Shown one piece after another: positions 14,608 through 63,455 of a stretch of 64,000 nucleotides of DNA (within the stretch, counting starts at the first letter, position 1; each line of letters starts with the position of its first letter). The notes beneath the pieces were generated by a model. The model did no database searches. It saw nothing but the letters and a program-made list of their open reading frames with translations, and was not told where the DNA came from. This stretch comes from a virus: IMG/VR virus record IMGVR_UViG_3300036770_003657, positions 335,797-399,796 of that record; one strand, written 5' to 3'. Both the position numbers and the translations under genes were made by a program.

Positions 14608-14612
14608 AAAAA

Positions 14613-14620: not shown

Positions 14621-14642
14621 TAAAAAAAGGGCCCTAAGGCCC
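14621..14642 (-). terminator. Intrinsic terminator after the 42-aa gene
   Basis: Minus-strand stem GGGCC / GGCCC (14638-14642 with 14629-14633), loop TTAG, then seven T residues. It ends the upstream secreted-peptide transcript just ahead of iscA. Confidence 0.8.
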
Positions 14643-14660
14643 AATTTGTAAAAGGCTAAA

Positions 14661-14789
14661 TTATTTTTTAGCTTCTTTTTTCTCTTCTTTCTTATCTACC
14701 TTCTTGTCATCCTTCTTAGCATCTGCTGCATAAGCGGTACCTACGGTTAAAGCAAAAAGAGCTGTCATCATTGCTGCAACGATTTTCAT
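14661..14789 (-). CDS. 42-aa secreted, lysine-rich peptide
   Basis: Signal peptide M-K-I-V-A-A-M-M-T-A-L-F-A-L-T-V-G-T-A-Y-A with cleavage at A-Y-A-A, leaving a mature peptide of about 20 residues made almost wholly of K, D, E and A. It has its own terminator, so it is a separate transcription unit. An AAGGAAC site precedes the ATG. The role is unknown. Confidence 0.65.
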   Translation of the reverse strand: MKIVAAMMTALFALTVGTAYAADAKKDDKKVDKKEEKKEAKK

Positions 14790-14854
14790 ACATGTTCCTT
14801 TCTAGTTAGTATGTATATATATTAACGCCTGTGTGTGTAAATGTGCTGACTTAT

Positions 14855-17821: not shown

Positions 17822-18706
17822 TTACCATGTAGTAGTATTTTTACCACTATCTCCTATTATTTGTCCAATACTATATGCAGCAGGAGCAGCTACAAATTCC
17901 ACTGGATTATTATGATGTTGTGTTACCCAATCTCTTATTCTAGTCCAGTCTTGAAATAAGCTTTGTGTAGTTGTATATGTTCTTTTAGTACCTTTATTAG
18001 TCGTTAATTCGTAGCTATATGTAATTGTGTAAGTTAAATCATTGGTCCAATAATATATTTCAGATTCAGGTCTTGTTGGACATTCAGTTATATCATACTC
18101 TGTTAAAATTCTAGGAGTAGTGTGTGGAGCAGAGTCAGAAGTAGTAGCACTTGATAAATGATCAACATATTTCATTGTTCCAGTCGGTATCATATCATAA
18201 AATCCACTGGCTTCACAATTATCTGCATTGATAGTCAATGTAATATGATCTAAAAATCTTGGGCGTCTTGGCATACTAATATCAGTACATTGTACTTCAA
18301 TAATTTCTTCATCTTCTTCATCATTATACCATAAGTAAGGTATAGGATCATAATCTGGATTTGGTACTTCTCCTGCATAATTGCCATCACCATCATATGC
18401 AGCTATAGTTTGGGGTAAAAAATGTGCTGGGTTAGGGATATGTGGTGGTTTTACTATTGATGCTCCAACTGTAAAACTAAAATTAGCATAAATTTCTACA
18501 CTGCCTCCAGAACCAGACCAATTAAAAGTATTTCTATAGTCATAGCTATAACTAACACTGTCTCCAGGTTTATCATTACTAGAAGGAGTAAATGTTTCTG
18601 GAGCACGCCACTCTGCTCCATTTTTAAATGGAAAAATAAATGGAAAATCTGTATTAGGTGGAGGAGGTGACTGTATCAGTGTATAGCCATCTATTATCAC
18701 ACTCAT
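17822..18706 (-). CDS. Putative virion protein next to tail fibre
   Basis: 294 residues rich in Tyr, Thr, Pro and Ser with beta-strand repeats (S-V-S-Y-S-Y-D-Y, Y-T-I-T-Y-S-Y-E-L-T). No family is recognised. Its ATG overlaps the fibre stop and its stop overlaps the spike region, so it belongs to the tail gene block. Possibly a fibre accessory or baseplate protein. Confidence 0.6.
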   Translation of the reverse strand: MSVIIDGYTLIQSPPPPNTDFPFIFPFKNGAEWRAPETFTPSSNDKPGDSVSYSYDYRNTFNWSGSGGSVEIYANFSFTVGASIVKPPHIPNPAHFLPQTIAAYDGDGNYAGEVPNPDYDPIPYLWYNDEEDEEIIEVQCTDISMPRRPRFLDHITLTINADNCEASGFYDMIPTGTMKYVDHLSSATTSDSAPHTTPRILTEYDITECPTRPESEIYYWTNDLTYTITYSYELTTNKGTKRTYTTTQSLFQDWTRIRDWVTQHHNNPVEFVAAPAAYSIGQIIGDSGKNTTTW

Positions 18707-27700: not shown

Positions 27701-30700
27701 CCTGGGGTGCTGGCATATGATGGATAAGTATCAATTAACCAAGCAATGACTTCCTCTCTAATAAATGCTTTATTTGTTTGTAATTGATTTTTAGCATTTA
27801 AAACTGCAACTTCTGCATTACTGGGATCAGTGAAAGACACTGCATCAATAGCAGGATAACCTTCCTCAAGAAAATCAATTATTTCCTGTACTTTATTTTT
27901 ATAGCTTAAGAAGAATGTGCCACTGGTTACATATTGTTCACTTTCTCTGTATAATTGTTTTAATGCTGCTGCTGTCTGTATCTTTTGATTATAGAAAGTG
28001 CCTAATTGATTCTGTCTATCATAACTATATTGATTTTGTCTAGTATTTAAGTTAGTTCCCAGTACTATGTCATATATAGCTCCTTCAATGACTAGACTCA
28101 TATCTCTTTCACATTTGGTTACTGTGGGGCCAGTATAACTAAATCCTAAAAATGTATTATTGACATAGTTAGTACCTTGATCAACTATATATTCAATATT
28201 ATCTAATAATAAGTCTTTGGCATTGACATAACCTACTGGCAATCCTGCAGGAGTTGGCATAGTAATTGCAGGTAATATTGTAGGTATTTTAGCAATACCA
28301 TCTCCAGTACCAGGTACAGCGGCTACAAAGGTATCTCCTACTGTATAAGATTCACCAGTAGTACCAGCTACAGCGTTCCAATCAGTGCTTCCTAATACTT
28401 CAATTTCATACGTAATACCCGCAACTAAATCTGTTACAGGATATGATACATCAACTACGTTGATTAAGTCACCAGCATATGTATTCGCCAGTATGTTTGT
28501 AATACTTTGAATACTGGCAGCTACTTCAGTTGCCTCAGTTCCACTTTGAGTATCTACAGCCTTTAACAATAGATAGTTTAAAGCTCTAATGGTAATATCT
28601 TTTTGACTAATTAGTACTGCACTGGCTGTGGCATTGCTATAGGTAAATCCTGCCTTTACGCTTTGCCAATTACTGCCATAGATAAGATCATATCCAATAG
28701 CATCAATAATTAAACCAACATCTCTAAAACAAGTTTGATCATTAAATTCATTTCTTTGTTTATAGACTAAATTACTGGCTATTTGTAGGGCACGTTTAAT
28801 AGTTTTTACTGGTTTATTAATGCCATCAAAATTATCATCACCATTAGTTGCACTAACAGCTACTTGTCCACCACCAAATAAATCAGCACTAACAAATTCT
28901 AATTTATTTCCATCTCGATTAAGTGATAATATTGATCCATCTACACCTAAAACTCTTGGAAATGTTAATGTATAACTGTTTACAAACTCTTCCGGTGTTG
29001 TTCCTGCTGGGGCACGTAATCCTACATAGTTATTGCCGTTTGAAGTTAACTCTTTTAATCTAATCTCGCCTTGATTATTAACATTAAGACCGTCAGTGTT
29101 GATTAAGGTAGATCTTATTGTAGATGGAGTTGTCTCACCTATCCTAGTATTATCAATAGTTCCACTGTTGATATCTACGTTGGCTAATGTGCTAGTGCCA
29201 TCTACAGTAAGATCTTCAGCAATATACACATTGTTGTTTACTGTAATATTATTTACTGTAATATCATCTAATAACAAACTGCCTAAAGTTGCTTGGCCAG
29301 TAACATCGAGGTCACCACCAATATTAACATTACCAGTAGTATCAAGTGTATTGGCATCAATGTTATCAGCATTTATATCATTACTTGTTATTGTGCCTGT
29401 GAAATTACTAGTACCAGTAACATCTAGATTGCCACCTACATGTAAGTTTTCGCTTATTCCTACACCACCTGTTACTACGACGGTTCCAGTAGTTGTATCG
29501 GTAGAACCTATATTAGCCTTTGCATATACCTGTCCATCTAAATTAGTCTCTAAATTAACTGTTAAGTTTTCAATAGTAGCATTATCAAGTACATCTAATA
29601 TATCAGTTTCTATATTAGTGGCATCAACGTCACCAGTCAAATCACCTGTAACATCACCTGTAACATTACCAGTATACATAGCATCGGTACCTGTAGTACC
29701 TCTATCCAATATTACAGTTTCAGTGACTACACCACCAGTGTCCTTATAAAGAATAATATCTGTGTATGCTTTTGCATCAAACCCATTAGTACCATTTTCA
29801 AAAACTTTTACACTTACATTTTCAGCAAATATATCACCAGTGCTTGGTCCAATAATAGTACCTTCAAACTCACCAATAAATCTTTCAGTGGCTTCGATTA
29901 TTGTTCCTGTTATGGCTCTAGGTTCTTCTGCTCCAATTACAGTGGCATCAATATTCCCACCATTTATATCAACTTGATCTAACCTACTAAGCCCATAACT
30001 GGTTATATTACCACTTACCTTACCGATAAACTCAGCTTCTACATAACCTGAATCTAAGGGTGCTCCACCTGTACCATTCTCCAATACTTTTGTAATACCA
30101 TCTTCAGCATAGATATCACCAGCAAAATTTCCGCTTATGCTACCTTCAACATTACCATAGAATACAGGTGGTTGATAACTTAATACATTTGTTGGGCCAC
30201 CTGTTCCATTATCTAATATTTTAGTAGTGCCATCAGCAGCATATAAATCACCAACTACATTACCTTCTAGTTTACCAACAAATTTTACACTGGCAGTAAT
30301 TACAGTTCCTGTGATTAAGGTAGGACCGCTATTACCAATTATAGTGCTGTTAATAAATCCACCGTTTAATAACAAACTACTTATTTGACTGGTTCCAGTA
30401 GTTTGAGTTATTCGACCTAACAATTCACCTGTAAAAGTTGCATCTGTTCCATTGGTGCCATTCTCTAAAACTTTTACTCCACTATCGCTATAAATATCAC
30501 CAAAAACATCACCAAACAAGTTACCAGTAATATTGCCTTGAATGTTAGCTAGAATTTCTTCTTCTACATTTATACTATTGGCTACTATATCGCCAGCTAC
30601 ATTAAGATCGCCTCCAATACCTACTCCACCAGATACAATCAATGTTCCTGTATATGGGTCTAAACTAGGCGTATTATCAGAAAGTATTGTTTTAACATTA

Positions 30701-30990
30701 ACAGTAATTATTTCTGGATCAGCTACTAGGGTTTCTACAGTATTGTTTGTCATGACAATACTATTGATTCTATCTTCAGGGCCAATGCTTAGAAAAGTAT
30801 AGGGATTGAATTCGGAAACAACTTCACCTAAAGTAACAATATAGGATAAGTTGTTCCACCTAGTAAAACCATCACCTATTTTAAAGTTTTTTTGATCTAG
30901 GTCAACCCCAATCTCGCCCTGTGCAAGAATCGGGTTAATATCTATCCAGTTTTGTCTTGAATCTCTTCTTAATTGAATCCTTTTGGCCAT
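18706..30990 (-). CDS. Giant tail fibre / adhesin (4094 aa)
   Basis: Start at 30990 is chosen because GGAGACAATA precedes the ATG; an ATG 15 codons earlier is weaker. The N-terminus (K-R-I-Q-L-R-R-D ... G-E-I-G-V-D ... K-I-G-D-G-F-T-R-W-N) is the Mtd-type tail-attachment module. It is followed by many T-G-N/G-D-V-T-G beta repeats, five C-x-R-D...Y-D...G-N-x modules between about 25.7 and 28.8 kb, a pectate-lyase-like stretch, tandem repeats near 19.4-20.3 kb, and a C-terminal peptidase-G2/IMC-like trimer autocleavage domain (Y-A-D-L-A-E-N-Y). It forms the main host-recognition fibre. GATAAATA-type promoter variant upstream. Confidence 0.9.
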   Translation of the reverse strand: MAKRIQLRRDSRQNWIDINPILAQGEIGVDLDQKNFKIGDGFTRWNNLSYIVTLGEVVSEFNPYTFLSIGPEDRINSIVMTNNTVETLVADPEIITVNVKTILSDNTPSLDPYTGTLIVSGGVGIGGDLNVAGDIVANSINVEEEILANIQGNITGNLFGDVFGDIYSDSGVKVLENGTNGTDATFTGELLGRITQTTGTSQISSLLLNGGFINSTIIGNSGPTLITGTVITASVKFVGKLEGNVVGDLYAADGTTKILDNGTGGPTNVLSYQPPVFYGNVEGSISGNFAGDIYAEDGITKVLENGTGGAPLDSGYVEAEFIGKVSGNITSYGLSRLDQVDINGGNIDATVIGAEEPRAITGTIIEATERFIGEFEGTIIGPSTGDIFAENVSVKVFENGTNGFDAKAYTDIILYKDTGGVVTETVILDRGTTGTDAMYTGNVTGDVTGDLTGDVDATNIETDILDVLDNATIENLTVNLETNLDGQVYAKANIGSTDTTTGTVVVTGGVGISENLHVGGNLDVTGTSNFTGTITSNDINADNIDANTLDTTGNVNIGGDLDVTGQATLGSLLLDDITVNNITVNNNVYIAEDLTVDGTSTLANVDINSGTIDNTRIGETTPSTIRSTLINTDGLNVNNQGEIRLKELTSNGNNYVGLRAPAGTTPEEFVNSYTLTFPRVLGVDGSILSLNRDGNKLEFVSADLFGGGQVAVSATNGDDNFDGINKPVKTIKRALQIASNLVYKQRNEFNDQTCFRDVGLIIDAIGYDLIYGSNWQSVKAGFTYSNATASAVLISQKDITIRALNYLLLKAVDTQSGTEATEVAASIQSITNILANTYAGDLINVVDVSYPVTDLVAGITYEIEVLGSTDWNAVAGTTGESYTVGDTFVAAVPGTGDGIAKIPTILPAITMPTPAGLPVGYVNAKDLLLDNIEYIVDQGTNYVNNTFLGFSYTGPTVTKCERDMSLVIEGAIYDIVLGTNLNTRQNQYSYDRQNQLGTFYNQKIQTAAALKQLYRESEQYVTSGTFFLSYKNKVQEIIDFLEEGYPAIDAVSFTDPSNAEVAVLNAKNQLQTNKAFIREEVIAWLIDTYPSYASTPGSIIDKCRRDVEFIVDAITYDVLYGGNSATYSNAEAYIFGAVLQLGAGEKAQTLAAYTRLQEIIGDIVNAVPITKSSTNLLTQDTSLYPATNSEQTIKCQDLVDIIIDVITDENTSSLNNKVFPDISSANPTTQLNFGLIQENKAAIITGVSQFITVEFNNFTYNEEKCARDIRYLVYSLAYDLMYGGNSQTIDAAKKYFSYGMGLPIFNDRQASAITYRYLKEEIINLVLENDLNAFGVGDPASSAAIDKAQELLGYVVTIIDQGPSQAPNTEYPNATPISPTKSDARAALLADKEIIQTETVAFVADYIPNEKRIVIAVASGDYYEDNPIIIPDNVSVVGAGLRACNIRPLNAGKDMLRVRNGCYFTEITFRDALDVNNIPSFTFDYAVAFDDPADPECSRVGYTRLPNNKPVISISPYVQNCSIISFLGGNGVLVDGSKVRTPNIPVNQIEAENPVEGPAPQQGKSMVGNAFTMLSFGGTGYRVINDAYAQIVSCFQIFCLNGSYCQSGGYLSITNSATNFGQFALRANGYSPNAFDFNKGIVVATGSAGAQQTITAIGFGDLPVQHYVIRFRNPVYRETYSTILNNKEELRDALITWIDSQVTANTAPYYTGFTYDQDTCRRDTLLVLEAVAYDVLTGGNSKSVEAGVAYSTSTVAALINQRTQNIAAFQELKSLTIALVHPDAQSRVGDLFDIIIDIIDSIINVPEIVDYSNIGDVTNSYKQVDDQVPFTPSNNVTIPGTSPAQIEPVINVNTNVITIPAHGFQNTEKIVYRANGNSLIKGLYDEQTYVIKILNANQFELYLDDGFEIKAKFTAPLPTGEHLLLKNIKEFFIDDLTESHVVYQKLQVEPPPIGQSYTFIPGRVIEGTTSGITPNRAYIFSWDPTTRSLVVSVEKVLVGENFIRNNFTLDTVIQYDNGSPAILNIDVTDVQNVDNLYTATFKILATTSGNELINLETLPSKQIWLHRPSIVNSSSHTWEYAGSGTDYNALPQNGGRTRVEYEQVSELPGRVYSSGTNELGDFKVGDFIKAENKTGNVQFTNTVSIAALDALKLAVGNITIEEFSADIDLGDNEVGGPSHNRLSTQLAVRSFLENRLGDFIDKELTTTTQPGGIPQLNALGKLSADQIPPLRNFLVYRSNGYRSRLNLVNTVPPTSILNGDLAIETYSGVSLTLDGVLVAVDGDLILQASSGATGRVVGGNNSTTVVIGSLGEFFDDTFDTVGEITLNGASTGLTPTLVGGIIPDQNTNYILSELDSKQILLLDPTQTYDFTGVTSVTGSNSQAQGTIEYIVEGVANALDNSNDPVTGLAGGSGYTQPPSGFYTDVPLTGGSGTGARADLFLSGGVVTNVVLTAGGSGYTTVDRLSANDANLNGRTGGSAFSVKVSQIQNRVYVDIVGALKFNANSIAPEFTEDANVVTKTTDQLDSTVVATFNAASTGSGGNVNTALSRITIVGHPFDDGDAVQYNAGFGTPLGGIVNNSIYYVKSIDADTIELYTTYSLSTKLTIVNSGAGNQTLTLSILDITKDTVYIPDHGFATGDAVKIIAADPPYGILTNSIFFVGSVTTNTFTIHEGRADAVASTLGLTIGAFNFTNTGTGVASFRKQSIKIIGVVDNASILAENWSSLSASNIDTTNIVSGIMSTTRLAIGTANSNTFLRGDSTWAKAVQKIKKPSVDSAITITGPFFDPGPGGIQEFYNEVTVGVDVVSGGQENANIPGHTNLGVASFNKSQFEVGTGGSQGAVGIKSGVVDAGTLDGQDGLYYLTPSNIIGQVPVDKGGTNIASYTVGDMLYASGSTIIQKLPIGDTNSVLNVQPVSLGSANKRPVWTDSITLNGLTVNGNVNITGAASTLNAYDIQMDDNNIELGSVEPISSRSGNINFTAIGALTTTITASTAGMIPGMTLSRVSGGQLGANPRVTAINGANLFTFTADTPPDQISPNGVAVVFNTGGITDATAAGGGITIKGTTDKLFRWIQSTSSWTSSENMDLATGKTYKINGVDVLSSTTLGSGVVNSSLTGVGTISTGTWQASIISPTYGGTGVNNGTKTITLGGNLTTSGAYASTFTMTAATSVTFPTTGTLATLAGTEALTNKTVNGMTISNSTGTFTLANAKTLTASNTMTFQATDGSTINFTTGGQVIYKAAPTIDDPTFNITYNGSGALTSVTLQSAYTTDFKTRFTSVGTTNRFSWLTNLNWNGSAFVKDNNLKSHWAIDKVITVTDTTSYIAFTYGGPTNLASADKFKVFGTGRIEMAGNISSTNTSTGTLIVTGGVAVTENLNVGGNFNVTGNTVIGGNLTVSGTTTTINTETIELADNIIVLNSNETAEPTQNAGIEIERGTDTNVSLLWDESVDKWTFGAGSTVIAGTFQGSVSGGLSGNADTATKLATARTIALTGDVSGSVTFDGSNNVSMTTTIGIDSVALGTDTTGNYIAAVSSGTPGSQTGTSGLTISGSGEGVTVNISHADTSSVGNLSSDNSGNTFIQDISFDFDGFGHVTSASVATATVSIGNGTLTVQGNNGLTGSGTFTANQSTAGTITLSHADTSSVGNLSSDNSDNTFIQDISFEFDGYGHVTAASVATATVSIGNGTLTVQGNNGLTGTGTFTANQSTAGTITLGHANSAITAGTVSDGGATRTLAFGGTFKIPSVTYDAYGHITGTNTITLTMPANPDTNTTYSAGTGLSLSGTTFNHSNSVTAGTISDGGATRTLAFGGTFKIPSVTYDANGHITGTSSITLTMPANPDTNTTYSAGTDLSLSGTTFNVSSATANTASTLVKRDASGNFSAGTITATFSGNLTGNVTGNVSGSSGSCTGNAASASTSSQVTINYNNDSNSTYQMLWGSGNSVYGTGGIYCNPATDTLYASVFNGVATQAKYADLAENYLADAKYEEGTVLMIGGVNEVTIGTDLTRKVVGVVSKNPAHLMNSELEGEHVVAVALQGRVPVKVRGKISKGDMLVSAGDGYAKAHDDPRMGMVIGKALEDFDGDEGVIEVVVGRL
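19430..19860 (-). repeat. Two-copy coding repeat (72-aa unit) in the tail fibre
   Basis: Near-identical blocks 216 bases apart, for example ACCACCAAATGCCAGTGTT at 19561 and again at 19777. Each encodes T-V/I-S-D-G-G-A-T-R-T-L-A-F-G-G and Y-S-A-G-T-x-L-S-L-S-G-T-T-F-N. Confidence 0.8.
19845..20310 (-). repeat. Two-copy coding repeat (77-aa unit) in the tail fibre
   Basis: Blocks 231 bases apart, for example TTAAATTACCTACACTGCTA at 20049 and 20280. Each encodes H-A-D-T-S-S-V-G-N-L-S-S-D-N-S plus V-Q-G-N-N-G-L-T-G. Two recent tandem duplications lie side by side. Confidence 0.8.
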
Positions 30991-31040
30991 TATTGTCTCC
31001 AACTGTAGTTTGGAGATAGCCTCCAAACCGCCCATAATAG

Positions 31041-46792: not shown

Positions 46793-47989
46793 ATGATAGA
46801 TAAAATCCACTTCAAACGCTTAATCGGCGACTTAAAAGATTCGGGCAAATATCGTGTGTTCAACAATATAGTCCGTGAAAAAGGTAAATTTCCAAACTCA
46901 ATATGGTACGGTCCATACGCAATCAAGAACATCGTTAACTGGTGCTCTAACGATTACCTCGGAATGGGTCAGCACAAAGTTGTCATAGACGCAATGCACA
47001 CTGCACTAGATCAAACTGGTTCAGGGTCAGGTGGTACTAGAAACATCGGCGGGACCAGTACTTATCACGTTGCTTTGGAAACAGAACTAGCATTCTTACA
47101 TCGTAAGGATCGTGCTTTATTATTCAGCAGTGCTTATGTGGCTAATGAATGGAGTCTTATAGCACTGAGTAAAATTGTACCTAATATACACTTTGTGAGC
47201 GATAGTAAAAATCACAATAGTCTAATAGTAGGTATCAGTCATAGTAAGGCTCCGAAAACCGTGTTCACACACAACGATATGGAAAACCTTGAAAGCATAC
47301 TTAAAGCAGTTAGAGATGCTGGAGAGACTCCTTGCGTAGTGTTTGAAAGCGTATACAGTATGGATGGCGATGTTAGCACGATGACTGAAATATGTGACCT
47401 TGCTGACAAATACGAAGCCATTACCTATATTGATGAAGTACACGCAGTAGGCCTATATGGTGAACGTGGTGCAGGTAAGTTGGAAGAACTTAAACTACAA
47501 CATCGTGTGGACATTGTAAATGGTACATTAGGTAAAGCATATGGTGTACAAGGCGGATATATAGCGGCAGATAGTGAAGTGGTAGATGCTATACGCAGTG
47601 TAAGTCATGGCTTTATCTTTACTACAAGTATGAGCCCTGTTAGTTGTGCTGGTGCATTATCAGCAGTTAAATTTCTTAAAGAACATAATGAAATAAGAGA
47701 AAAGCATCAGGAGCGTGCCAATAGACTAAAAACATTATTGAAACAAAATGATCTTCCACTTATGAATACTAGTACACATATTGTGCCAGTGCTTGTAGGC
47801 AATGCTGTTCGTGCTAAGGCAATGAGCGATGCCCTACTAGAAGATCATAACATATATGTTCAACCTATAAATTATCCTACAGTGGCAGTAGGCACAGAGA
47901 GACTACGTTTTGCTCCAACTCCATATCATGATGATGGTATGATGGAGAAGTTAATTGTGGGATTGAAGGATATTTTTAGTCGGATTTAA
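46793..47989 (+). CDS. hemA: 5-aminolevulinate synthase (Shemin pathway)
   Basis: 398 residues, alpha-oxoamine synthase fold. [15 protein letters not shown] (His142), [12 protein letters not shown] (Asp214, His217) and the PLP lysine Lys248 in T-L-G-K-A-Y-G, which has the same number as in Rhodobacter ALAS. Makes 5-aminolevulinate from glycine and succinyl-CoA, the first committed step of tetrapyrrole synthesis. Full length and intact. It stands alone on the plus strand between minus-strand genes, with its start 8 bases after AATAAATA. Confidence 0.93.
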
Positions 47990-48416
47990 GACTAGCACGT
48001 AACATCCATCCGTGTTTGTTATGTGCATCAATCCTACCAGCAATGAAGTCACTAAAGCCATATTCATTATGGCTTTCACTTGCTTGAAATACTAATTTCA
48101 ATAATTTTATAATTCTTAAATTATCTTCTAATAGAGTAGCCACCATTTGCTCTTTGGGCAATATACTGACTTCATCCTCTATTTGGGTTAACATACTAAA
48201 TCTGCTAAAACTAGCTGGTACGTATGTGCCTAATCCTCTGATCTGTTCGGCAAAAACATCTATACTTTCAAATACTTCCTCGTATATATCCCCAAACAAT
48301 TGATGATATTGAGCAAAATCAGGACCTTCTACATTCCAATGAAAGTTATGTGCCTTTAGGTAAAAGGCAAATGTAGTACTAAAAGCTACTTTGGCTGCTT
48401 TGTGTAGTTCGTCCAT
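47976..48416 (-). CDS. dps: Dps-family ferritin
   Basis: 146 residues. N-F-H-W-N-V-E-G-P, with ferroxidase residues His26, His38, Asp53 and Glu57 ([11 protein letters not shown]). Dps stores iron and shields DNA from oxidative damage. It is convergent with hemA and overlaps its end by 14 bases. Suggests handling of iron freed by heme oxygenase (inference). Confidence 0.9.
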
Positions 48417-53943: not shown

Positions 53944-54370
53944 AGGCAGCAATTTAACAGCATTTGATTTGGATGGAGTATTCATTCCTGATTGTGACCA
54001 AATTCCAGATTTAGGTGATCACGAAGCCTATTTGAATTTGACTATGTATATGCAACCCGTATTCAAACCAGTAGGTGAATGGATCCTACTAACAGGTAGA
54101 CCAGCAGAATATGAGCACGTTACCAAAAGTTGGTTGCTCAAATATTTTACTAATCAACCCAAAATGATCCTTCATCAAAGAGATGCTGAAAAGGAAACTA
54201 ACGAAGAATACAAATTGCGTATGATTAAGGAACATGATATTGATGTCTATATAGAAAGTGATAAAAAAATCGTGGATCACTTAAAAGGTAATTTGGATGT
54301 GGATAAAAAGACTATACAGCATTTCAGCGAGTTCTGTGAGTTGTATTTGAACTACAACGCAGGAGCTTGA
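53936..54370 (+). CDS. HAD-superfamily phosphatase-like protein
   Basis: 144 residues. F-D-L-D-G-V-F (D-x-D motif I), L-L-T-G-R-P (motif II) and I-E-S-D-K-K (motif IV-like). Small HAD proteins with this form act on nucleotides or 5'/3' phosphates. Coupled to the phosphoribosyltransferase, so nucleotide metabolism is likely. Confidence 0.75.
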   Translation: MSKGSNLTAFDLDGVFIPDCDQIPDLGDHEAYLNLTMYMQPVFKPVGEWILLTGRPAEYEHVTKSWLLKYFTNQPKMILHQRDAEKETNEEYKLRMIKEHDIDVYIESDKKIVDHLKGNLDVDKKTIQHFSEFCELYLNYNAGA

Positions 54371-54395
54371 CAATATCTAAGTTTTCGCATATAAT
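54367..54395 (+). promoter_or_regulatory. Sigma70-like promoter before the lipoprotein
   Basis: TTGACA (54367-54372), 17-base spacer, TATAAT (54390-54395). Confidence 0.8.
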
Positions 54396-55043: not shown

Positions 55044-55269
55044 AGACCTATTGGGTCGTAAGGTTGGGGTTGGATCATTTGTGGCCTTTACCCAAAACAA
55101 TAGACTGTTCGTTGGTCGTGTAATAAAATTAAACAGACAAATGCTGCGTATTGAACGTATTAAACATACCAAATGGATGGCTGATCAGACCAATAAGTAT
55201 TCATATGATTGTGTGGTCATTCCAGATAAGGATGTGGACTTTTATATACTGAGGAATATTACAAAATGA
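55021..55269 (+). CDS. Hypothetical small beta protein
   Basis: 82 residues from the ATG at 55021. V-G-S-F-V-A-F-T-Q-N-N-R-L-F-V-G-R-V-I-K-L has an SH3/KOW-like strand pattern. The last residues Y-I-L-R-N-I and the sequence ACTGAGGAAT precede the first array gene, a layout like that of the later array. Confidence 0.6.
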   Translation: MLETPEHKDLLGRKVGVGSFVAFTQNNRLFVGRVIKLNRQMLRIERIKHTKWMADQTNKYSYDCVVIPDKDVDFYILRNITK

Positions 55270-55466
55270 AAATGAGTAGCGTGGAAGTTGGCCTATTCAA
55301 ACTGCCTGGTGTAGTATTTGAGCGTGATGTTCTCACTCCAGAGAAAGTAGAACAGATCAATGCTTGGTGTGCGGAAAATAACTGCGGCAAGCAAATGACT
55401 GACCTACTTTGGAGTTTTAAAAAGCCCACACAGCGTGACATGTTCATACTACGGTGGAGTGAATAA
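55266..55466 (+). CDS. WFxLRW-array protein 1
   Basis: 66 residues. Helix with I-N-A-W-C-A-E-N-N-C-G-K, then L-L-W-S-F-K-K and the end D-M-F-I-L-R-W-S-E. First member of the array. CGGTGGAG in its last codons serves the next gene, whose ATG overlaps the TAA. Function unknown. Confidence 0.75.
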   Translation: MKMSSVEVGLFKLPGVVFERDVLTPEKVEQINAWCAENNCGKQMTDLLWSFKKPTQRDMFILRWSE

Positions 55467-55654
55467 TGTATACGATTAAGTCTGAGCACATCTTACTTCG
55501 TGCATCAACACACTATTATTCAGAAGTATGGCAGGGTGGTAAGTTAGGAATGCTAGATTGGCTTGATAAGGAGTTTGGTGCTAGAACAAATGACGGTGTT
55601 ATTTATTTTAAAACAGAAGCCAAGCGTAATTGGTTTGCTCTAAGATTCTCATGA
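55466..55654 (+). CDS. WFxLRW-array protein 2
   Basis: 62 residues. M-L-D-W-L-D-K-E-F-G helix, G-V-I-Y-F-K-T-E-A strand and N-W-F-A-L-R-F-S end, with F in place of the final W. Ends by TCATGA overlap into gene 3. No clear Shine-Dalgarno at this junction. Confidence 0.75.
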   Translation: MYTIKSEHILLRASTHYYSEVWQGGKLGMLDWLDKEFGARTNDGVIYFKTEAKRNWFALRFS

Positions 55655-55941
55655 GCGGATCCAGTTTAAAAAAAGTTGTGGATGACCTTTATCGTATACT
55701 TAATCGTAAGGCAAGATATTATTGGAGTGAATCTGGGCTAGAATTGAAACTAATTGCCGAAATGGATTGGGAAGATGGAACTGGTATCCACGCACCAGAT
55801 CAGCACGTAGTTGAACGTATAGCAGAATGGTGTTATAAGAATCGTTGTGGACGTCGTACTAGTTATGATACATTTAAGTTTCGTAATCGTAAACAAATTA
55901 CTTTGTTCCTACTACGTTGGGGTGAAGTAAAGGATGAGTAA
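55651..55941 (+). CDS. WFxLRW-array protein 3
   Basis: 96 residues from the ATG at 55651. A longer N-terminus, then I-A-E-W-C-Y-K-N-R-C-G-R-R-T and T-L-F-L-L-R-W-G followed by a five-residue acidic/basic tail. The overlap with gene 4 is 8 bases. Confidence 0.75.
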   Translation: MSGSSLKKVVDDLYRILNRKARYYWSESGLELKLIAEMDWEDGTGIHAPDQHVVERIAEWCYKNRCGRRTSYDTFKFRNRKQITLFLLRWGEVKDE

Positions 55942-56134
55942 GGATTGGCAGGGTTGGGAAATAGTTAGTATACAACAACCCGCTAATAGTCTAGTTGGCT
56001 GGAGTGAATGCTTGGCTTGGTGTGACCATACCCTAAAGCCTCATACCTATTACTATATGGGCGAGGGTGTGTTTACTTTTAAAAATGAATGTGATGCTAC
56101 ATGGTTTAAACTAAGGTGGGATAATGGAAATTAA
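55934..56134 (+). CDS. WFxLRW-array protein 4
   Basis: 66 residues. C-L-A-W-C-D-H-T-L-K-P-H-T-Y, G-V-F-T-F-K-N-E-C-D-A-T-W-F-K-L-R-W, then D-N-G-N. It shows the full layout: W-C helix, hairpin, strand, motif. Confidence 0.75.
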   Translation: MSKDWQGWEIVSIQQPANSLVGWSECLAWCDHTLKPHTYYYMGEGVFTFKNECDATWFKLRWDNGN

Positions 56135-56285
56135 AAGACTAATGATTCCTTTGGATGATGATAGAATTGCCAGTTTGCTATTTAGGCGAGTCAACGATGG
56201 CAATGATTGGGTATGTGTGATGAACGATGAGTTTATGACAGATCTATCTGATTTATTGGAAGTAGAAGAACATACACTACAATGA
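56124..56285 (+). CDS. 53-aa acidic hypothetical, array insert
   Basis: M-E-I-K-R-L-M-I-P-L-D-D-D-R, then D-L-S-D-L-L-E-V-E-E. Lacks the array motif. Its ATG sits in the GGTGGGATAATG junction of gene 4, showing that the junction can host foreign genes. Overlaps the following gene by ATGA. Confidence 0.6.
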   Translation: MEIKRLMIPLDDDRIASLLFRRVNDGNDWVCVMNDEFMTDLSDLLEVEEHTLQ

Positions 56286-56542
56286 ACTACGACGACGTTA
56301 AATTCAATAACAAATTAGATGAGATGATAGAGCGAGCAGGTGGTCGTCTATATCTTGCTCACTTGGATCGTCCAGCACTAGAACGCTTTGTTAGAATAAT
56401 GCTGGAGGATATTGAAGAAGATATTAAAGGTTGGCGTGATAGTAAGGATGATAGTATGTATGGTGACTACTGGGAAGGCTATGCTCAAGGCTGTGCGGAT
56501 AGTATAGTAGCGGTGAGACTATGGGCACAAGACATAACCTAG
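56282..56542 (+). CDS. 86-aa hypothetical, array insert
   Basis: Helical and acidic, with M-L-E-D-I-E-E-D-I-K-G-W and Y-W-E-G-Y-A-Q-G-C-A-D-S-I. No array motif. Unknown role. Confidence 0.65.
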   Translation: MNYDDVKFNNKLDEMIERAGGRLYLAHLDRPALERFVRIMLEDIEEDIKGWRDSKDDSMYGDYWEGYAQGCADSIVAVRLWAQDIT

Positions 56543-56796
56543 ATCACTTGCCCAGACAGGGGCAATATGAATTATTCATCAGTGCCAATCATATCTATTG
56601 TTTTGATGATCTTGATCATGTTAAATGGCCTAATAACGAGCAAACTCAGAGTTGGCTAGCCAAGCAAAATAGTGTACTATGTAGAGCATACATAACTCAA
56701 GATAATAACAAGCCCAGTGCTTATTATTTGGATCCTAAATTATATTTTATGTGGAAATTGGCTTGGAGTGAATATGCGAAACCGATCCGGATATAG
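56521..56796 (+). CDS. WFxLRW-array protein 5 (degenerate end)
   Basis: 91 residues. The motif region reads L-Y-F-M-W-K-L-A-W-S, followed by eight extra residues. The SD (TTGGAGTG) for gene 6 lies at the motif, with the ATG inside this gene. It looks like a member whose end has drifted past the old stop. Confidence 0.6.
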   Translation: MGTRHNLDHLPRQGQYELFISANHIYCFDDLDHVKWPNNEQTQSWLAKQNSVLCRAYITQDNNKPSAYYLDPKLYFMWKLAWSEYAKPIRI

Positions 56797-56974
56797 TCTT
56801 CCTGATTATGCCTTATATCGTTATAAGTGGCAGTATAACGGCATAGCACCATTTGAGGAAATAAGCGATTGGTGTAGGAATAATCTTAAAGGCCATACTT
56901 ATATACCATATGAAACTATTTGGTTCAGTAATGAGCGGGACTATCATTGGTTTTTATTACGGTGGAGTTCATGA
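56774..56974 (+). CDS. WFxLRW-array protein 6
   Basis: 66 residues. E-I-S-D-W-C-R-N-N-L-K-G-H-T-Y, T-I-W-F-S-N-E-R-D-Y-H-W-F-L-L-R-W-S-S. ATG at 56774, 6 bases after GGAG. It resembles gene 4 in the H-T-Y turn. Confidence 0.75.
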   Translation: MRNRSGYSLPDYALYRYKWQYNGIAPFEEISDWCRNNLKGHTYIPYETIWFSNERDYHWFLLRWSS

Positions 56975-57228
56975 AATATATAGAAGATCCTGACATCTGG
57001 TACAATCTACAGACACACTTTTCAAATAATTTTATTCCCCGCTTGGAGAATGATGATAAGGTTTGGGCAATGGCATTTAAACGGTGGCTAAAAGATCAAG
57101 GTGCTGACATTGAAATGAAATTGGGTTATAGATTAATTCGTAATAGTTTGGGCATAGCACCTCACTATGATCGATTGGTCTTTGAAGATGATCGAGATGC
57201 CACAATGTTTATATTGAGGTGGTCATGA
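56971..57228 (+). CDS. WFxLRW-array protein 7
   Basis: 85 residues from the ATG at 56971. A-F-K-R-W-L-K-D-Q-G-A-D helix, R-L-V-F-E-D-D-R-D-A-T-M-F-I-L-R-W-S end. First of the eight uniform GAGGTGG junctions. Confidence 0.78.
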   Translation: MKYIEDPDIWYNLQTHFSNNFIPRLENDDKVWAMAFKRWLKDQGADIEMKLGYRLIRNSLGIAPHYDRLVFEDDRDATMFILRWS

Positions 57229-57476
57229 AGCCAAGTGAATTACTGGCCATAGCAGAAAAATACTGGCTCACGGAGTATGATTTTAACAAGCCCGTAGCAC
57301 CGGATACGCCCTTTGTCACAGGTGACGGCCGCTATGATGCTATATTATATGACATGCTCGTTCAACATGGTGTAGAATTGATATTGAAACAGAGTAGACA
57401 TAGAAATTGGAAATTGGAAGATTACCGTGTGGTTGATAACAAAAAGTTTATGTGGTTTTTGATGAGGTGGTCATGA
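57225..57476 (+). CDS. WFxLRW-array protein 8
   Basis: 83 residues from the ATG at 57225. Contains L-V-Q-H-G-V-E-L-I-L-K-Q and ends F-M-W-F-L-M-R-W-S. The start codon and TGA stop of gene 7 overlap. Confidence 0.78.
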   Translation: MKPSELLAIAEKYWLTEYDFNKPVAPDTPFVTGDGRYDAILYDMLVQHGVELILKQSRHRNWKLEDYRVVDNKKFMWFLMRWS

Positions 57477-57679
57477 AATTCCGTATGATCGATATGGGCT
57501 ATCGTCAGAGTCCCGACTATCCTTATAACTATAGGATTGAACTCTTTGATTATGGTTTCGAAGAACGCCGGCAGTTAAGTCTGTGGTTAAATGATCTTAA
57601 AATTCCCCATACCACAACTGGCAGTGTGATATACTTGGGCGAGAAATATGCTAATTGGTTTGCTTTGAGGTGGTCATGA
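57473..57679 (+). CDS. WFxLRW-array protein 9
   Basis: 68 residues. R-Q-L-S-L-W-L-N-D-L-K-I-P-H-T, G-S-V-I-Y-L-G-E-K-Y-A-N-W-F-A-L-R-W-S. The 3' codons are nearly identical to those of genes 10-12. Confidence 0.8.
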   Translation: MKFRMIDMGYRQSPDYPYNYRIELFDYGFEERRQLSLWLNDLKIPHTTTGSVIYLGEKYANWFALRWS

Positions 57680-57894
57680 GTGAAAGAATTGATCATGTCA
57701 TTGACAAAAGAGGGTATGTGCTTATGGGAGATAGTAGGGGCATAGTCACACCATATGAACTAAGACAAGAGATTTATGAATGGGCTCAAAAGAATAACAT
57801 AGAAATAGAATACCATGGCAGTCTTGATAGAAAAGATCTATGGTATGTAAAAAACGATCAGCATCGTAATTGGTTTACTTTGAGGTGGTCATGA
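57676..57894 (+). CDS. WFxLRW-array protein 10
   Basis: 72 residues. I-Y-E-W-A-Q-K-N-N-I-E-I-E-Y, L-W-Y-V-K-N-D-Q-H-R-N-W-F-T-L-R-W-S. A standard member. Confidence 0.8.
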   Translation: MSERIDHVIDKRGYVLMGDSRGIVTPYELRQEIYEWAQKNNIEIEYHGSLDRKDLWYVKNDQHRNWFTLRWS

Positions 57895-58232
57895 AAATAC
57901 AGGGAATAAAAAAACTTAGGGATGATCAAAAGATTTTTGTGTTGGGCAAGATTACTCCGCATGCGTTTCGTCAATATATGGATCGCTACTCAGATTTTGG
58001 TTGGGCTATGGAAACGAGAGCACATCATGCTATTAAACGTTTAATAAAACATGAGCATATGGAATTATACCAATGGTTGTTGAGTCAAAATTGTCAAACA
58101 ACCAATTGGATTGATGATGAAATATTTTCACTTCCATATCAATTCCGTAATCAGGTAGATTATTTTGATTGGGGTATAGGGTTTAAGTTTAATGATCCTG
58201 CAGAAACTTGGTTTACTTTGAGGTGGTCATGA
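57891..58232 (+). CDS. WFxLRW-array protein 11 (longest)
   Basis: 113 residues. An extended helical N-terminus (residues 1-55), then Y-Q-W-L-L-S-Q-N-C-Q and F-K-F-N-D-P-A-E-T-W-F-T-L-R-W-S. May have an added N-terminal domain. Confidence 0.8.
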   Translation: MKIQGIKKLRDDQKIFVLGKITPHAFRQYMDRYSDFGWAMETRAHHAIKRLIKHEHMELYQWLLSQNCQTTNWIDDEIFSLPYQFRNQVDYFDWGIGFKFNDPAETWFTLRWS

Positions 58233-58462
58233 TGACTAGGTTAGTTTGTTTGCCTGCTCACGAAGGACCTGTGCTAAATGCTGCTATTTGGTTGAGACAG
58301 CACTTAAACATACCCCAGTATGAAACTATGGAAAGTCAGTTTGAAGAATATTTTAATTGTCGGGTGGTAAGAGAGCCACCACACGATTTGGTCTATGGTA
58401 AAATATTTGCTGTGTTTGACTGTGAGCGGGATGCTAATTGGTTCGTATTGAGGTGGTCGTGA
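58229..58462 (+). CDS. WFxLRW-array protein 12
   Basis: 77 residues. A-A-I-W-L-R-Q-H-L-N-I-P-Q-Y, then F-A-V-F-D-C-E-R-D-A-N-W-F-V-L-R-W-S. Two ATGs lie in a row at the start; the first is in the best place for the SD. Confidence 0.8.
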   Translation: MMTRLVCLPAHEGPVLNAAIWLRQHLNIPQYETMESQFEEYFNCRVVREPPHDLVYGKIFAVFDCERDANWFVLRWS

Positions 58463-58662
58463 GACAATTGAAGAAAGAACTATGGCCCTGTAGTGTTAGA
58501 GTAAACTTGCCACCCGAGGATATAACACCTGTTGAACTATGGTTAGCCCTACAGTTTGGTGCATTAAAGGATAGATGGAATGTGATTTATAGATTCAATC
58601 ATACAGAGTACTATTTTCGTAATCAAAAAGACGCTAATTGGTTCGCATTGAGGTGGGCGTAA
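58459..58662 (+). CDS. WFxLRW-array protein 13 (GTG start)
   Basis: 67 residues. The junction reads TCGTGA, so the start is GTG overlapping the TGA. Contains V-E-L-W-L-A-L-Q-F-G and Y-Y-F-R-N-Q-K-D-A-N-W-F-A-L-R-W-A. Confidence 0.78.
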   Translation: MRQLKKELWPCSVRVNLPPEDITPVELWLALQFGALKDRWNVIYRFNHTEYYFRNQKDANWFALRWA

Positions 58663-58925
58663 TGGCAGAAACTATACGCAAGTTCGCTGAACAAAGGAAA
58701 GTAAAGAACTGGGACCACACCACTGCCAAAAATGTACAAGAAGAATACCAAGCCTCTGGCTACTATCCTGTGCAGTTAGGCATGCTGGGCCTAGTGGGTG
58801 AATGGCAGGAATGCCATCGGTGGTGTCGTGACTATATAGGTGAGGATCACTATAGTTGGACAGGATCAACATTTTGGTTTGAAACAGAGCAAGCGGCTAT
58901 GTGGTTCGCATTGAGGTGGGCATGA
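58662..58925 (+). CDS. WFxLRW-array protein 14
   Basis: 87 residues. E-C-H-R-W-C-R-D-Y-I-G-E-D-H-Y, S-T-F-W-F-E-T-E-Q-A-A-M-W-F-A-L-R-W-A. Starts by TAATG overlap with gene 13. Confidence 0.8.
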   Translation: MAETIRKFAEQRKVKNWDHTTAKNVQEEYQASGYYPVQLGMLGLVGEWQECHRWCRDYIGEDHYSWTGSTFWFETEQAAMWFALRWA

Positions 58926-59128
58926 GTAAAAGAGATTGGTGTAATATCGCTGTTAGTGTGCCTTGGCGTAGCCCTGGACAATGGCGTGACCTGCGTATTT
59001 GGCTACAGGAAAATGTCAACGATATGGACTACGATGCTGCCGGTGTAGATTTACAGCGTTACGATCAAAGAGTATTTTATTTTGCTAGACCGAAGGATGC
59101 AATGTGGTTCGCACTGAGATGGAGTTAA
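58922..59128 (+). CDS. WFxLRW-array protein 15
   Basis: 68 residues. L-R-I-W-L-Q-E-N-V-N-D, R-V-F-Y-F-A-R-P-K-D-A-M-W-F-A-L-R-W-S. Its last codons (GATGGAGTT) give the SD for the following non-array gene. Confidence 0.8.
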   Translation: MSKRDWCNIAVSVPWRSPGQWRDLRIWLQENVNDMDYDAAGVDLQRYDQRVFYFARPKDAMWFALRWS

Positions 59129-59129
59129 T

Positions 59130-59519
59130 ATGATTGATAAAACAGTAGAAGAGTTCTGTAAGAGATATGAAGCAAGAATAGTACGCACCGGCCAGTATCA
59201 TCGTAGGGCAGAACCGAGTCCTTGGCGTATACCTGGCTATTATGAAACAAGTACCATAAAAAATGTCGACTTCTTCAATATTACTGAAGTGCCTATAACA
59301 AGTATTACCCTGCCAGAAGATCGGCTTGGTGCATTGGTAGAACACGAACAGCGTGTATCTGATTTTGTAGAACCTTTCCACCGAGGCCATGTTGGCAAAT
59401 ATCAACACATAGAAGCCCATATAGCAGAACAAGAAATTGAATGTCGCCTGCGTCATACTAATCCTGCACTGAAGAAGGCCTGGGACAATTATCAAATGCT
59501 ATTGAGGCTGGTAAGATGA
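59130..59519 (+). CDS. 129-aa hypothetical, array insert
   Basis: Y-E-A-R-I-V-R-T-G-Q-Y-H-R-R, D-F-F-N-I-T-E-V-P-I-T, and a Glu-rich helical C-terminus (H-I-A-E-Q-E-I-E-C-R-L-R-H). Lacks the array motif. The family is unknown. Confidence 0.65.
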   Translation: MIDKTVEEFCKRYEARIVRTGQYHRRAEPSPWRIPGYYETSTIKNVDFFNITEVPITSITLPEDRLGALVEHEQRVSDFVEPFHRGHVGKYQHIEAHIAEQEIECRLRHTNPALKKAWDNYQMLLRLVR

Positions 59520-59746
59520 AGTGTGGCTGTTATGAGTGTGTAAAGAATGATTTACTTCTAGTTATGAGCACTATTATAGTGTGTGGTACCTGTGGTAATA
59601 AACGCTGTCCACATGCTACTAATCATTTACTGCCCTGTACCAATAGCAATGAGCCAGGACAATTAGGATCAAGGTATGGCACTTGGCCACATCCTGATCT
59701 GCCTTTTTATGAATTCATATCTAAAGGTCAAAAGGATAAAATCTAA
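59516..59746 (+). CDS. Zinc-binding small protein
   Basis: 76 residues. C-G-C-Y-E-C, C-G-T-C-G-N-K-R-C-P-H-A-T-N-H and C-T-N-S-N-E-P-G-Q: Cys/His-rich ligand sets for one or two zincs. Similar short proteins occur in marine T4-like phages. Not an array member. Confidence 0.68.
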   Translation: MKCGCYECVKNDLLLVMSTIIVCGTCGNKRCPHATNHLLPCTNSNEPGQLGSRYGTWPHPDLPFYEFISKGQKDKI

Positions 59747-59756
59747 TATATAGTGT

Positions 59757-59975
59757 ATGAGCATACAAGTCACTGTGCCTAATCAACATACTGGTCAACT
59801 CATAGACATGGTAAGAGAATTAAAAAAACAGGGACTAGAACAAGGGCGGGATTTCGATTTTAGGTTTATGCCTGCTGTATATGATTTTGCTAACAATCAT
59901 AGTGAGCCAAGGCATGCGGTATTTGTTTTCTACGAGGAAAAATGGGCAACTTGGTTCACACTAAAATGGCTTTGA
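59757..59975 (+). CDS. WFxLRW-array protein 16
   Basis: 72 residues with a different N-terminus (I-Q-V-T-V-P-N-Q-H-T-G-Q-L-I-D-M), V-F-V-F-Y-E-E-K-W-A-T-W-F-T-L-K-W-L end. K replaces R in the motif, and the GAGGTGG is lost at this junction (CACTAAAATGG). Confidence 0.72.
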   Translation: MSIQVTVPNQHTGQLIDMVRELKKQGLEQGRDFDFRFMPAVYDFANNHSEPRHAVFVFYEEKWATWFTLKWL

Positions 59976-60181
59976 ACAATTTAGGCTATCCTGATATATA
60001 TCCTGGTTGGCATTACTTACATAAGAAGTATAACATAAATCCTAAAGAAACAGACATTTATGAAATGTTTGCTTGGTGTGATGATAACATTGGTGAGTTT
60101 GGTGTAGACTGGGATTGGCACATTGATACCTTTTGCTTTCGTAGAGCCAAGGATGCTACAATATTTGGACTGAGGTGGTAA
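59966..60181 (+). CDS. WFxLRW-array protein 17
   Basis: 71 residues from the ATG at 59966. M-F-A-W-C-D-D-N-I-G-E-F, F-C-F-R-R-A-K-D-A-T-I-F-G-L-R-W and stop right at the W. GAGGTGG leads into the next gene. Confidence 0.75.
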   Translation: MALNNLGYPDIYPGWHYLHKKYNINPKETDIYEMFAWCDDNIGEFGVDWDWHIDTFCFRRAKDATIFGLRW

Positions 60182-60182: not shown

Positions 60183-60485
60183 ATGGCTGGATTTAAAAGT
60201 AAACGAGCATTGTCATCAAGTAAGATGTTTAATATGCCTATGGTCATGGCTGACCCCAGTGTAAACATATTATATCGTACACCGGATGGTTGGTACACTG
60301 TGGCCTTTAACAAGGAAACTATAGACTGGTTCCGTAAAACCTATGATGACAAACAAGGAATAACCTGGCGTGAGACAGATGATGACAGTTATATCATATA
60401 TCGTCGTAGGTTAGAACTAACTGAAGAAATGGTCACTCTACTAAAACTAAAATACAGTGACACGCTGGATAATACAGATATATAA
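60183..60485 (+). CDS. 100-aa hypothetical
   Basis: F-K-S-K-R-A-L-S-S-S-K-M-F-N-M, then D-G-W-Y-T-V-A-F-N-K-E-T-I-D-W-F and S-Y-I-I-Y-R-R-R. SD supplied by array gene 17. Shares only the general alpha/beta pattern; near its end is L-K-L-K-Y-S. Confidence 0.65.
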   Translation: MAGFKSKRALSSSKMFNMPMVMADPSVNILYRTPDGWYTVAFNKETIDWFRKTYDDKQGITWRETDDDSYIIYRRRLELTEEMVTLLKLKYSDTLDNTDI

Positions 60486-62131: not shown

Positions 62132-62486
62132 AACTATTAACTCAGGAAAATATATTACCGTACAACAAGCATATACTAGTCAACCATATATTAGCCCAGG
62201 ATCATCAGGCGCTGGTATGATACGGTGGAATCCCAATATGCAGTGTTTTGAAGTTAATGATGGTGCAGTATGGCAACAATATACAATGGCCAGCCCTACT
62301 ATTGAATTGAATACGGAAGCACAAGAACTGTTGGACTATGTTAGAAAACTACGTGATAGACAAAGACTAGTAGAACAAAATCCTAGTTTAGAAAAGGCTC
62401 TAGAGGCTATTACTCGTGCTGAGGATAACTTTGATACTTTGGCCAAACTAGTTGATACCAAACCAATAGATTATCATCATGTCTAA
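62124..62486 (+). CDS. Conserved phage hypothetical with coiled-coil tail
   Basis: 120 residues from the ATG at 62124. G-A-G-M-I-R-W-N-P-N-M-Q-C-F-E-V-N-D-G is a small beta motif often at phage fibre ends, followed by a helical L-D-Y-V-R-K-L-R-D-R-Q-R. Unknown role. Confidence 0.65.
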   Translation: MIKTINSGKYITVQQAYTSQPYISPGSSGAGMIRWNPNMQCFEVNDGAVWQQYTMASPTIELNTEAQELLDYVRKLRDRQRLVEQNPSLEKALEAITRAEDNFDTLAKLVDTKPIDYHHV

Positions 62487-62799
62487 TTATTGGGTAAAAA
62501 TAGAAGGCGATGAAGCTGTAGAATATCGTAAAGTACACGTTCATACAATCACTATGGGTGATGTAGAAGATCCTGAAATATATATAGCAGGACCCATATT
62601 AGAATGGCAACAAAGTGAAGTGGGTCGTTGGATAATGGAACATAGTGCTGAACAGCCTGTATTTCATAGATGGGCTGATCCTCACCATTATGGCTATACC
62701 TATAAAATCACTGCTGTACTACGAGGCAGGGATTATACTTATTGGACATTGAAGTGGGGCAAGGCGACCAATCACAAAGATATCTTGAAGAGTATTTAG
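62479..62799 (+). CDS. 106-aa array-like protein
   Basis: I-A-G-P-I-L-E-W-Q-Q-S-E-V-G-R-W-I, H-H-Y-G-Y-T-Y-K-I and R-D-Y-T-Y-W-T-L-K-W-G, then ten more residues. The motif is a variant of the array one (W-T-L-K-W), so it is likely a distant member. Confidence 0.6.
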   Translation: MSNYWVKIEGDEAVEYRKVHVHTITMGDVEDPEIYIAGPILEWQQSEVGRWIMEHSAEQPVFHRWADPHHYGYTYKITAVLRGRDYTYWTLKWGKATNHKDILKSI

Positions 62800-63038: not shown

Positions 63039-63455
63039 ATGAATACACGAGAACCTTTATTCAGCGTGACCGCACGTGACTGTGAATGGTCTTATACCAG
63101 AGGTACAGGAGCAGGTGGTCAAAAACGAAACAAGACATCCAGTGCTGTGCATTGTAGTCATCGTCCGTCAGGTGCTCACGGATATAGTGAAGCCAGTCGT
63201 AGCCAATTGGACAATCGTCGTGATGCCTTTCGTAAAATGGGAGAGAGTGCTAAATTCCAAACTTGGGCTAAGATGGAAATGATGCGGCGTACTGGTGAAG
63301 CCTTGGAGATTGAGCGTTGGCTGGAAAATGAAATGCGTAAGGTTAAAATAGAGATTAAGGTGGATGGTCGTTGGCGTGAAGTTAAACCTCATATGCTGGT
63401 GGATGATCCAGATGATTTTAGAATTGAATACTTAGCGGAGATGGGCGATGAATAA
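63039..63455 (+). CDS. GGQ release-factor-like protein (RF-1 domain)
   Basis: 138 residues. R-G-T-G-A-G-G-Q-K-R-N-K-T-S-S-A-V is the class I release-factor catalytic motif with GGQ at 26-28. It lacks codon-recognition domains 2 and 4, like ArfB/YaeJ. The C-terminus is charged. It may free stalled ribosomes or peptidyl-tRNA in infected cells. Similar genes are known in marine phages. Confidence 0.88.
   Translation: MNTREPLFSVTARDCEWSYTRGTGAGGQKRNKTSSAVHCSHRPSGAHGYSEASRSQLDNRRDAFRKMGESAKFQTWAKMEMMRRTGEALEIERWLENEMRKVKIEIKVDGRWREVKPHMLVDDPDDFRIEYLAEMGDE

Follow-up and report, generated by a model that had tools for sequence, protein, structure and literature searches.

In integrons, interchangeable small gene cassettes lie in one orientation and are joined at a shared sequence by each gene end. 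The array described here is a tandem set of 17 short genes at positions 55266-60181 of a 64,000-nucleotide stretch of phage DNA, the whole of which is called the window below; it spans positions 335,797-399,796 of the 399,796-base IMG/VR virus record IMGVR_UViG_3300036770_003657 and is thus the terminal 64 kb of that phage contig. Like integron cassettes, the genes of this array are interchangeable, small and of one orientation, and carry a shared sequence at their ends. Different from the integron, the shared sequence here is coding and provides the following gene with its ribosome site and start, and recombination looks homology-driven; neither an integrase nor attC-type sites were noticed, no search having been aimed at either.

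A second set of relevant systems concerns the sensing of phage proteins by bacteria. Gol, which lies within the first quarter of the T4 capsid protein gp23, is 29 residues long and forms the most conserved part of that protein; it binds EF-Tu and activates the Lit protease (reviewed in PMC3014915). CapRel (PMC9712102) and Thoeris (PMC11312562) are likewise triggered by capsid protein, while Avs1-4 are triggered by the terminase large subunit (TerL) and the portal (PMC12931631). Phages in turn encode anti-sensor proteins of the DSAD1 type, which counter a defence system sensing a phage structural protein; DSAD1 is a single protein with a tested target (PMC11087589), whereas the array studied here encodes a large shuffled family with a putative one.

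By building profiles of the array genes, modelling two of their products and comparing the locus with related metagenomic contigs (some of them near-duplicates of one another), we find one new protein family whose coding ends act as junctions between cassettes, and we tentatively hypothesize that the locus encodes a recombining battery of small proteins that would bind immune sensors or host proteins, some of them as mimics of immune triggers.

The cassette family

The initial annotation of the window, made from its sequence, had described about 17 head-to-tail genes; all 17 are present there, on the + strand, with lengths of 62-113 codons, differing N-termini and a common ending. A profile of the 17 members finds 18 places in the 400-kb genome, every one in this locus: 17 at 55.3-60.2 kb (E 2e-21 to 2e-6) and one at 62479-62799 (E 0.006). 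A second profile, built from the 20 C-terminal residues and run against the window and 18 related loci, matches 176 open reading frames (ORFs) at E<1e-3, the best reversed decoy scoring E 0.06. The reversed decoys, together with the confinement of all 18 matches to this locus of the 400-kb genome, rule out an artefact of chance or composition. Iterative profiles seeded with single members converge on about 260 relatives, and for most seeds more than 100 relatives are covered across three quarters of the profile, so that shared ancestry extends beyond the ending. The array genes and 62479-62799 form one new protein family.

Start codons are uncertain in some members, and the following coordinates should be read accordingly. 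The first four members lie at 55266-55466 (66 amino acids, ending MFILRWSE), 55466-55654 (62, WFALRFS), 55651-55941 (96) and 55934-56134 (66, of the W-C type). The fifth, 56521-56796, is degenerate (FMWKLAWSE) and was recognised through its relatives in L010 and L017, of which the L017 copy has an intact end. It is followed by 56774-56974 (66 amino acids), by 56971-57228 (85; L010 holds two relatives, in a different order), and by 57225-57476 (83), 57473-57679 (68), 57676-57894 (72), 57891-58232 (113), 58229-58462 (77), 58459-58662 (67, with a GTG start) and 58662-58925 (87), the last of these being the fourteenth. Member 15, 58922-59128 (68 amino acids), is 82-88% identical in L010, L011 and L012; member 16 is 59757-59975 (72, WFTLKWL), and member 17 is 59966-60181 (71), which starts either at 59942 or at 59966. 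Four genes inside the array are not members (56124-56285, 56282-56542, 59130-59519 and 59516-59746). Beyond it, weaker relatives had been proposed as far as 63.0 kb: the outlying 62479-62799 (+ strand, 106 amino acids, YWTLKWG) holds up as a weak member and 60183-60485 is marginal (E 0.015), but the genes at 61575, 61877 and 62742 find no support.

The annotated common plan, a W-C or W-L helix, strands and a D-A-x-W-F-x-L-R-W end, is borne out by the alignment and by AlphaFold models of two members. Member 13 (58459) is predicted as beta-alpha-beta-beta-alpha with a predicted local distance difference test score (pLDDT) of 87, and member 12 (58229) as beta-alpha-alpha-beta-beta-alpha with a pLDDT of 79.5; in both models the W-F-x-L-R-W signature sits in the final helix. 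No unrelated folds were found between these two, in agreement with the proposal of one small fold. Compared with the four-stranded ferredoxin-like fold (beta-alpha-beta-beta-alpha-beta), the models lack the last strand.

A coding junction between genes

In the array core the 15 bases TTGAGGTGGTCATGA encode L-R-W-S-stop (TTG AGG TGG TCA TGA), with the stop overlapped by the ATG at which the following gene starts. Within this ending, GAGGTGG forms a Shine-Dalgarno sequence, and every gene thereby contains the ribosome site for its successor. The module occurs on the + strand as TTGAGGTGGTCATGA at 57214-57228, comprising the L-R-W-S-stop codons, Shine-Dalgarno sequence and next ATG, as ATGAGGTGGTCATGA at 57462-57476, in exact form at 57665-57679, 57880-57894 and 58218-58232, as TTGAGGTGGTCGTGA at 58448-58462, where the next start is GTG, and as TTGAGGTGGGCATGA at 58911-58925. 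The identical 15 bases TTGAGGTGGTCATGA are also found in arrays that otherwise share little.

Codon usage follows this arrangement. AGG encodes the arginine of the ending in 86 of 101 members whose stop overlaps the next start, but only 69 of the 668 arginines in other parts of the genes; in a larger set it is used at the ending in 232 of 282 coupled but 21 of 56 uncoupled members. The ending is nevertheless no mere artefact of the ribosome site, an explanation that we tried and ruled out: the W-F part lies upstream of the Shine-Dalgarno sequence, the motif persists in uncoupled members, and in the predicted fold it belongs to the last helix. The protein motif is thus real in its own right. 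The shared ending doubles as a translation and recombination module, a point absent from the initial annotation.

The coding end accordingly serves three purposes: it completes a protein, it gives the following gene a ribosome site and start codon, and it is a joint for recombination. Even without any decoy role for the proteins, such a joint ending explains how a phage adds and drops genes while the neighbours stay expressed, and the module offers a route to more arrays of this kind.

Turnover of cassettes

Copy number and order in relatives, which had been put forward as a check on the annotation, are not fixed; order, number and content all change strongly. The 12 related contigs that were searched whole hold 5-73 copies each, with 73 on one 94-kb contig. 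In the close relative L022 the genes neighbouring the array (50.1-54.4 kb) are mostly 86-93% identical in protein sequence, two being lower (49 and 62%); within the array the first gene is 86% identical, and the later genes are 37-58% identical and reordered, with new cassettes among them. Individual cassettes of L010 are shared with the window at about 73-83% nucleotide identity, although for 8 kb of its flank the 400-kb genome offers no match in nucleotide sequence.

The points at which synteny ends mostly coincide with the shared ending. Among L010, L011 and L027, 49 of 56 synteny ends (87%) fall within -50/+20 nucleotides of a family stop, where 25% would be expected; the p-value is too small, because pairs were counted from both sides, but the effect is nevertheless large. 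Crossovers inside the last codons are visible in alignments, as between L010 and L011, which are identical along most of a gene and diverge from its last 50 nucleotides. At L017:2303-2740 (+) a single gene contains the family domain twice, complete both times, and seems to have arisen when two adjacent cassettes fused. Two longer proteins of 260 amino acids, encoded at L011:1869-2651 and L027:239-1021, carry the family ending at their C-termini, behind a long uncharacterised N-terminal part.

Comparable cassettes across phages show ratios of nonsynonymous to synonymous substitution (dN/dS) of mostly 0.1-0.5, N-terminal parts included, which indicates purifying selection; positive selection on the N-termini was not found. 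The initial annotation had called the set rapidly diversifying and had named purifying selection on the N-termini among the findings that would speak against it; such selection is what was found there, so that of the proposed diversification the turnover of cassettes stands and positive selection does not. Since each cassette is under purifying selection, N-terminus included, the diversity is better read as old divergence combined with recombination-driven turnover of cassettes.

Database relatives

The common body finds no recognised match in Pfam or PHROG, where matches are confined to fused heads or are weak and sporadic; among the longer cassettes of related loci (alignment A9) the sporadic weak Pfam matches are to a bleomycin resistance domain (two members, 1e-4) and the HigB toxin (one member, 0.004). 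PADLOC profiles of anti-phage defence match none of 126 members, and the PDB holds no weighty sequence or fold match to the family (best fold match E 0.28, TM about 0.5). The nearest predicted structures, in BFVD, are uncharacterized proteins of 55-92 amino acids from uncultured Caudovirales phages and two from Agrobacterium phage Atu_ph07, which have the same predicted fold (TM 0.6-0.8, best E 5e-4).

A profile search of four chosen cultured jumbo phages found weak, dispersed relatives in Pseudomonas phage MIJ3 and in Atu_ph07, none in RaK2, and in SCTP-2 one doubtful match with internal stops; different from the present locus, the relatives in MIJ3 and Atu_ph07 are scattered, and no array was seen in either genome. 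A tblastn search against cultured phages returned no related sequences, and a narrow test of bacterial genomes with one pattern returned no relative. Nothing matching such an array, or decoys made from capsid protein or TerL, was found in the literature covered, subscription papers being mostly outside its scope.

Heads resembling capsid protein and terminase

In several related arrays the variable N-terminal part, or head, resembles a piece of the phage capsid protein. In the gene at L014:6374-6850 an N-terminal segment of capsid protein Gp23 comes first and the family body last. Pfam detects such fusions of Gp23 to the family body in G004, G005, G012 and G022 (33-48 bits, against a curated cut-off of 24.4 for PF07068), a profile of the Gol segment adds those in L085, L102, L108 and L144/L145, and the capsid heads reach E 1e-9 to 1e-14 in Pfam and PHROG. 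Every short ORF with a Gol segment bears the family body, except one capsid gene cut by a contig end (L192). The cassettes hold short segments, none of them a full-length capsid protein of the HK97 fold (about 390-520 amino acids), and the true capsid genes are separate. Among the window's own cassettes, none reaches a PF07068 match to the Gol segment.

The heads of L014, L085, L062, L042, L108 and L144 align to about residues 92-128 of T4 gp23, within the first quarter where the review (PMC3014915) places Gol function and EF-Tu binding. Different from Gol in T4, the segment is here fused to a small unrelated body in a tandem array, and its binding to Lit or EF-Tu is putative.

Other heads give low scores to the capsid profile at repeated places, namely a helix segment (about residue 294 of T4 gp23) and an F-Y-A-P-Y segment (about 448); short segments score weakly when taken singly. 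At E<1 the capsid profile matches 13 of 559 family proteins (eight of them with Gol heads), 4 of 5107 other short ORFs and none of 1677 shuffled sequences, and the four other ORFs include a truncated capsid gene and an ORF, lying at the end of its contig, that has the same F-Y-A-P-Y head. When a profile of 12 helix heads, chosen by a simple pattern, was run against 1307 proteins, capsid proteins ranked first, all at one segment, though capsid genes are over-represented among these proteins because an earlier search had fetched them. Copying of capsid segments into heads is shown in relatives for the Gol region and the helix, and weakly for the third segment. Other structural or phage proteins tried as sources (portal, sheath, RecA and others in MIJ3 and T4 stretches) gave matches at the level of the shuffled-head control.

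Heads are exchanged on similar bodies. L108 carries a Gol head while L118 and L110 carry another head on a body 55-59% identical to that of L108, and the heads retain the same capsid segments across very different bodies. The dN/dS of the heads is 0.09-0.42 where computable, and this purifying selection argues that the heads are not junk. One Gol-head cassette, at L106:7944-8285 (+), is decaying: its V-Q-P-M-T part is gone and stops stand in the upstream reading frame.

The array might also have grown mainly by selfish or neutral expansion, the ending being a strong site of translation and recombination at which cassettes pile up and pieces of genes are captured. The breakpoints at the module, the fused double cassette of L017 and the decayed Gol cassette of L106 are what such growth would leave behind. 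Purifying selection on cassettes and heads, and the keeping of the same capsid segments on very different bodies, run counter to it; for retained cassettes this explanation is largely refuted, and as a general account we regard it as highly improbable.

Ten more cassettes have heads with G-R-x-x-G-K-S or a similar motif (P-loop heads). A profile of three of them ranks the TerL of MIJ3 first (E 0.0017) and that of the present genome next, and when all ten are put into the profile MIJ3 TerL is again at the top, though weakly (E 0.012). In PHROGs one P-loop head is assigned to TerL at 0.006 and another to DnaB at 0.004; one head scores equally with DnaB, and the joint profile puts TerL first rather than DnaB or other ATPases. 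What the heads have in common with TerL is a Walker-A-like segment, with no complete ATPase and nuclease domains. Derivation of these heads from the Walker A region of TerL is suggestive on these comparisons. The body lineage to which window member 3 belongs has P-loop heads in L018, L087 and L109, but the short head of member 3 itself is of another kind, without the motif.

Nine of the ten contigs with a P-loop head also hold a helix-head cassette, several times adjoining it. Such co-occurrence, and the derivation of the recognised heads from head and packaging proteins, would fit a set of assembly modulators, in which the cassettes bind the capsid protein and TerL of their own or a competing phage through copies of subunit contacts and so regulate or poison head assembly and packaging. 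The array is distant, however, from the genes that it would serve, as the T4-type major capsid protein of this genome is encoded at 93.5 kb and TerL at 164.9 kb of the 400-kb contig (the terminase is similar, at about 64% over part of the gene, to that of jumbo phages including the Pseudomonas phages Paride and MIJ3). The high turnover of the array is moreover unlike that of assembly factors, and most heads match no virion protein, so that we consider a role in assembly rather unlikely.

Possible function

The explanation we favour, though tentatively, is that of a recombining battery of sensor- or host-binding proteins. The locus is a modular gene-cassette array in which each cassette yields a tiny protein of two parts: the N-terminal head varies, and the C-terminal body is common to all, has the beta-alpha-beta-beta-alpha plan and ends in W-F-x-L-R-W-S. 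As the DNA of the ending at the same time provides the next cassette with its Shine-Dalgarno sequence and start codon, insertion or loss at the junction would leave translation of the neighbours intact, and it is at this same shared DNA that recombination joins cassettes, as the breakpoints show. The proteins may act on bacterial immune sensors or host proteins: those with capsid or TerL heads would be trigger mimics that bind the sensor, or a host partner such as EF-Tu, and blunt it, and the remaining cassettes would address other sensors or host targets. The role of trigger mimic is judged the most likely because capsid protein and TerL are sensed by several bacterial immune systems, and we infer a function of the same general kind for the window's own cassettes. 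A more specific version, in which jumbo phages use a common scaffold to display pieces of their capsid protein and packaging ATPase, and these decoys blind immune sensors, the array being a diversifying anti-sensing repertoire, is possible but doubtful. The initial annotation had suggested inhibitors of host targets or anti-defence proteins; the capsid and TerL mimic heads of related arrays make such a role likelier, as a prediction drawn from sequence comparison.

Several points weigh against this explanation. Neither a capsid nor a TerL head is detectable in any cassette of the window, and the mimicry comes from relatives, where it concerns roughly 40 of about 560 distinct members. Lit is switched on by a Gol peptide, and a cassette with a Gol head could therefore be detrimental to the phage if its body did not stop the activation. 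The segments recognised in heads may reflect detection bias, conserved segments being found most readily; the TerL-like heads are short, one of them matching DnaB equally well; and the genomes used for counting breakpoints are related, each pair having entered from both sides.

Expression bears on another possibility, a general host-takeover set in which each protein inhibits a different host enzyme, with the capsid and TerL heads serving a side purpose in a minority of members. A perfect sigma-70 consensus promoter-like site (TTGACA-17-TATAAT) lies upstream of the array at 54367-54395 (+) and is a possible start of the array transcript; early expression of the array may be surmised from this single site. 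Host-type promoters had been noted in the initial annotation; the total of promoter-like sites, 48, is no higher than chance would give (43.8 +/- 6.1). Tiny, very diverse and tightly coupled proteins under a consensus promoter, with a wide spread of isoelectric points, are in keeping with host takeover. Yet no sequence link was found from any head to host proteins or known host-takeover proteins, and the recognised heads indicate phage triggers, which leaves a general takeover set unlikely.

If the trigger-mimic interpretation is true, phages would counter bacterial pattern recognition with a modular, shuffled repertoire of mimics, and the heads would form a readable list of sensor targets, directly usable for finding unknown sensors.

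Other genes of the window

Directly after the array region, the product of 63039-63455 (+) contains the RF-1 domain of peptide release factors (E 5e-14) and is possibly a ribosome-rescue factor; a relative of this protein adjoins family genes in L025. Elsewhere, many host-like stress and metabolic genes, judged by eye from translations, lie at 4564-7853, 14281-15250 and 46793-48416; they include DnaK, Hsp20, ClpS, heme-oxygenase-like, IscA/IscU-like, aminolevulinate-synthase-like and Dps-like genes. A single ORF of 4109 codons at 18706-31035 (-) probably encodes a giant tail fibre protein.

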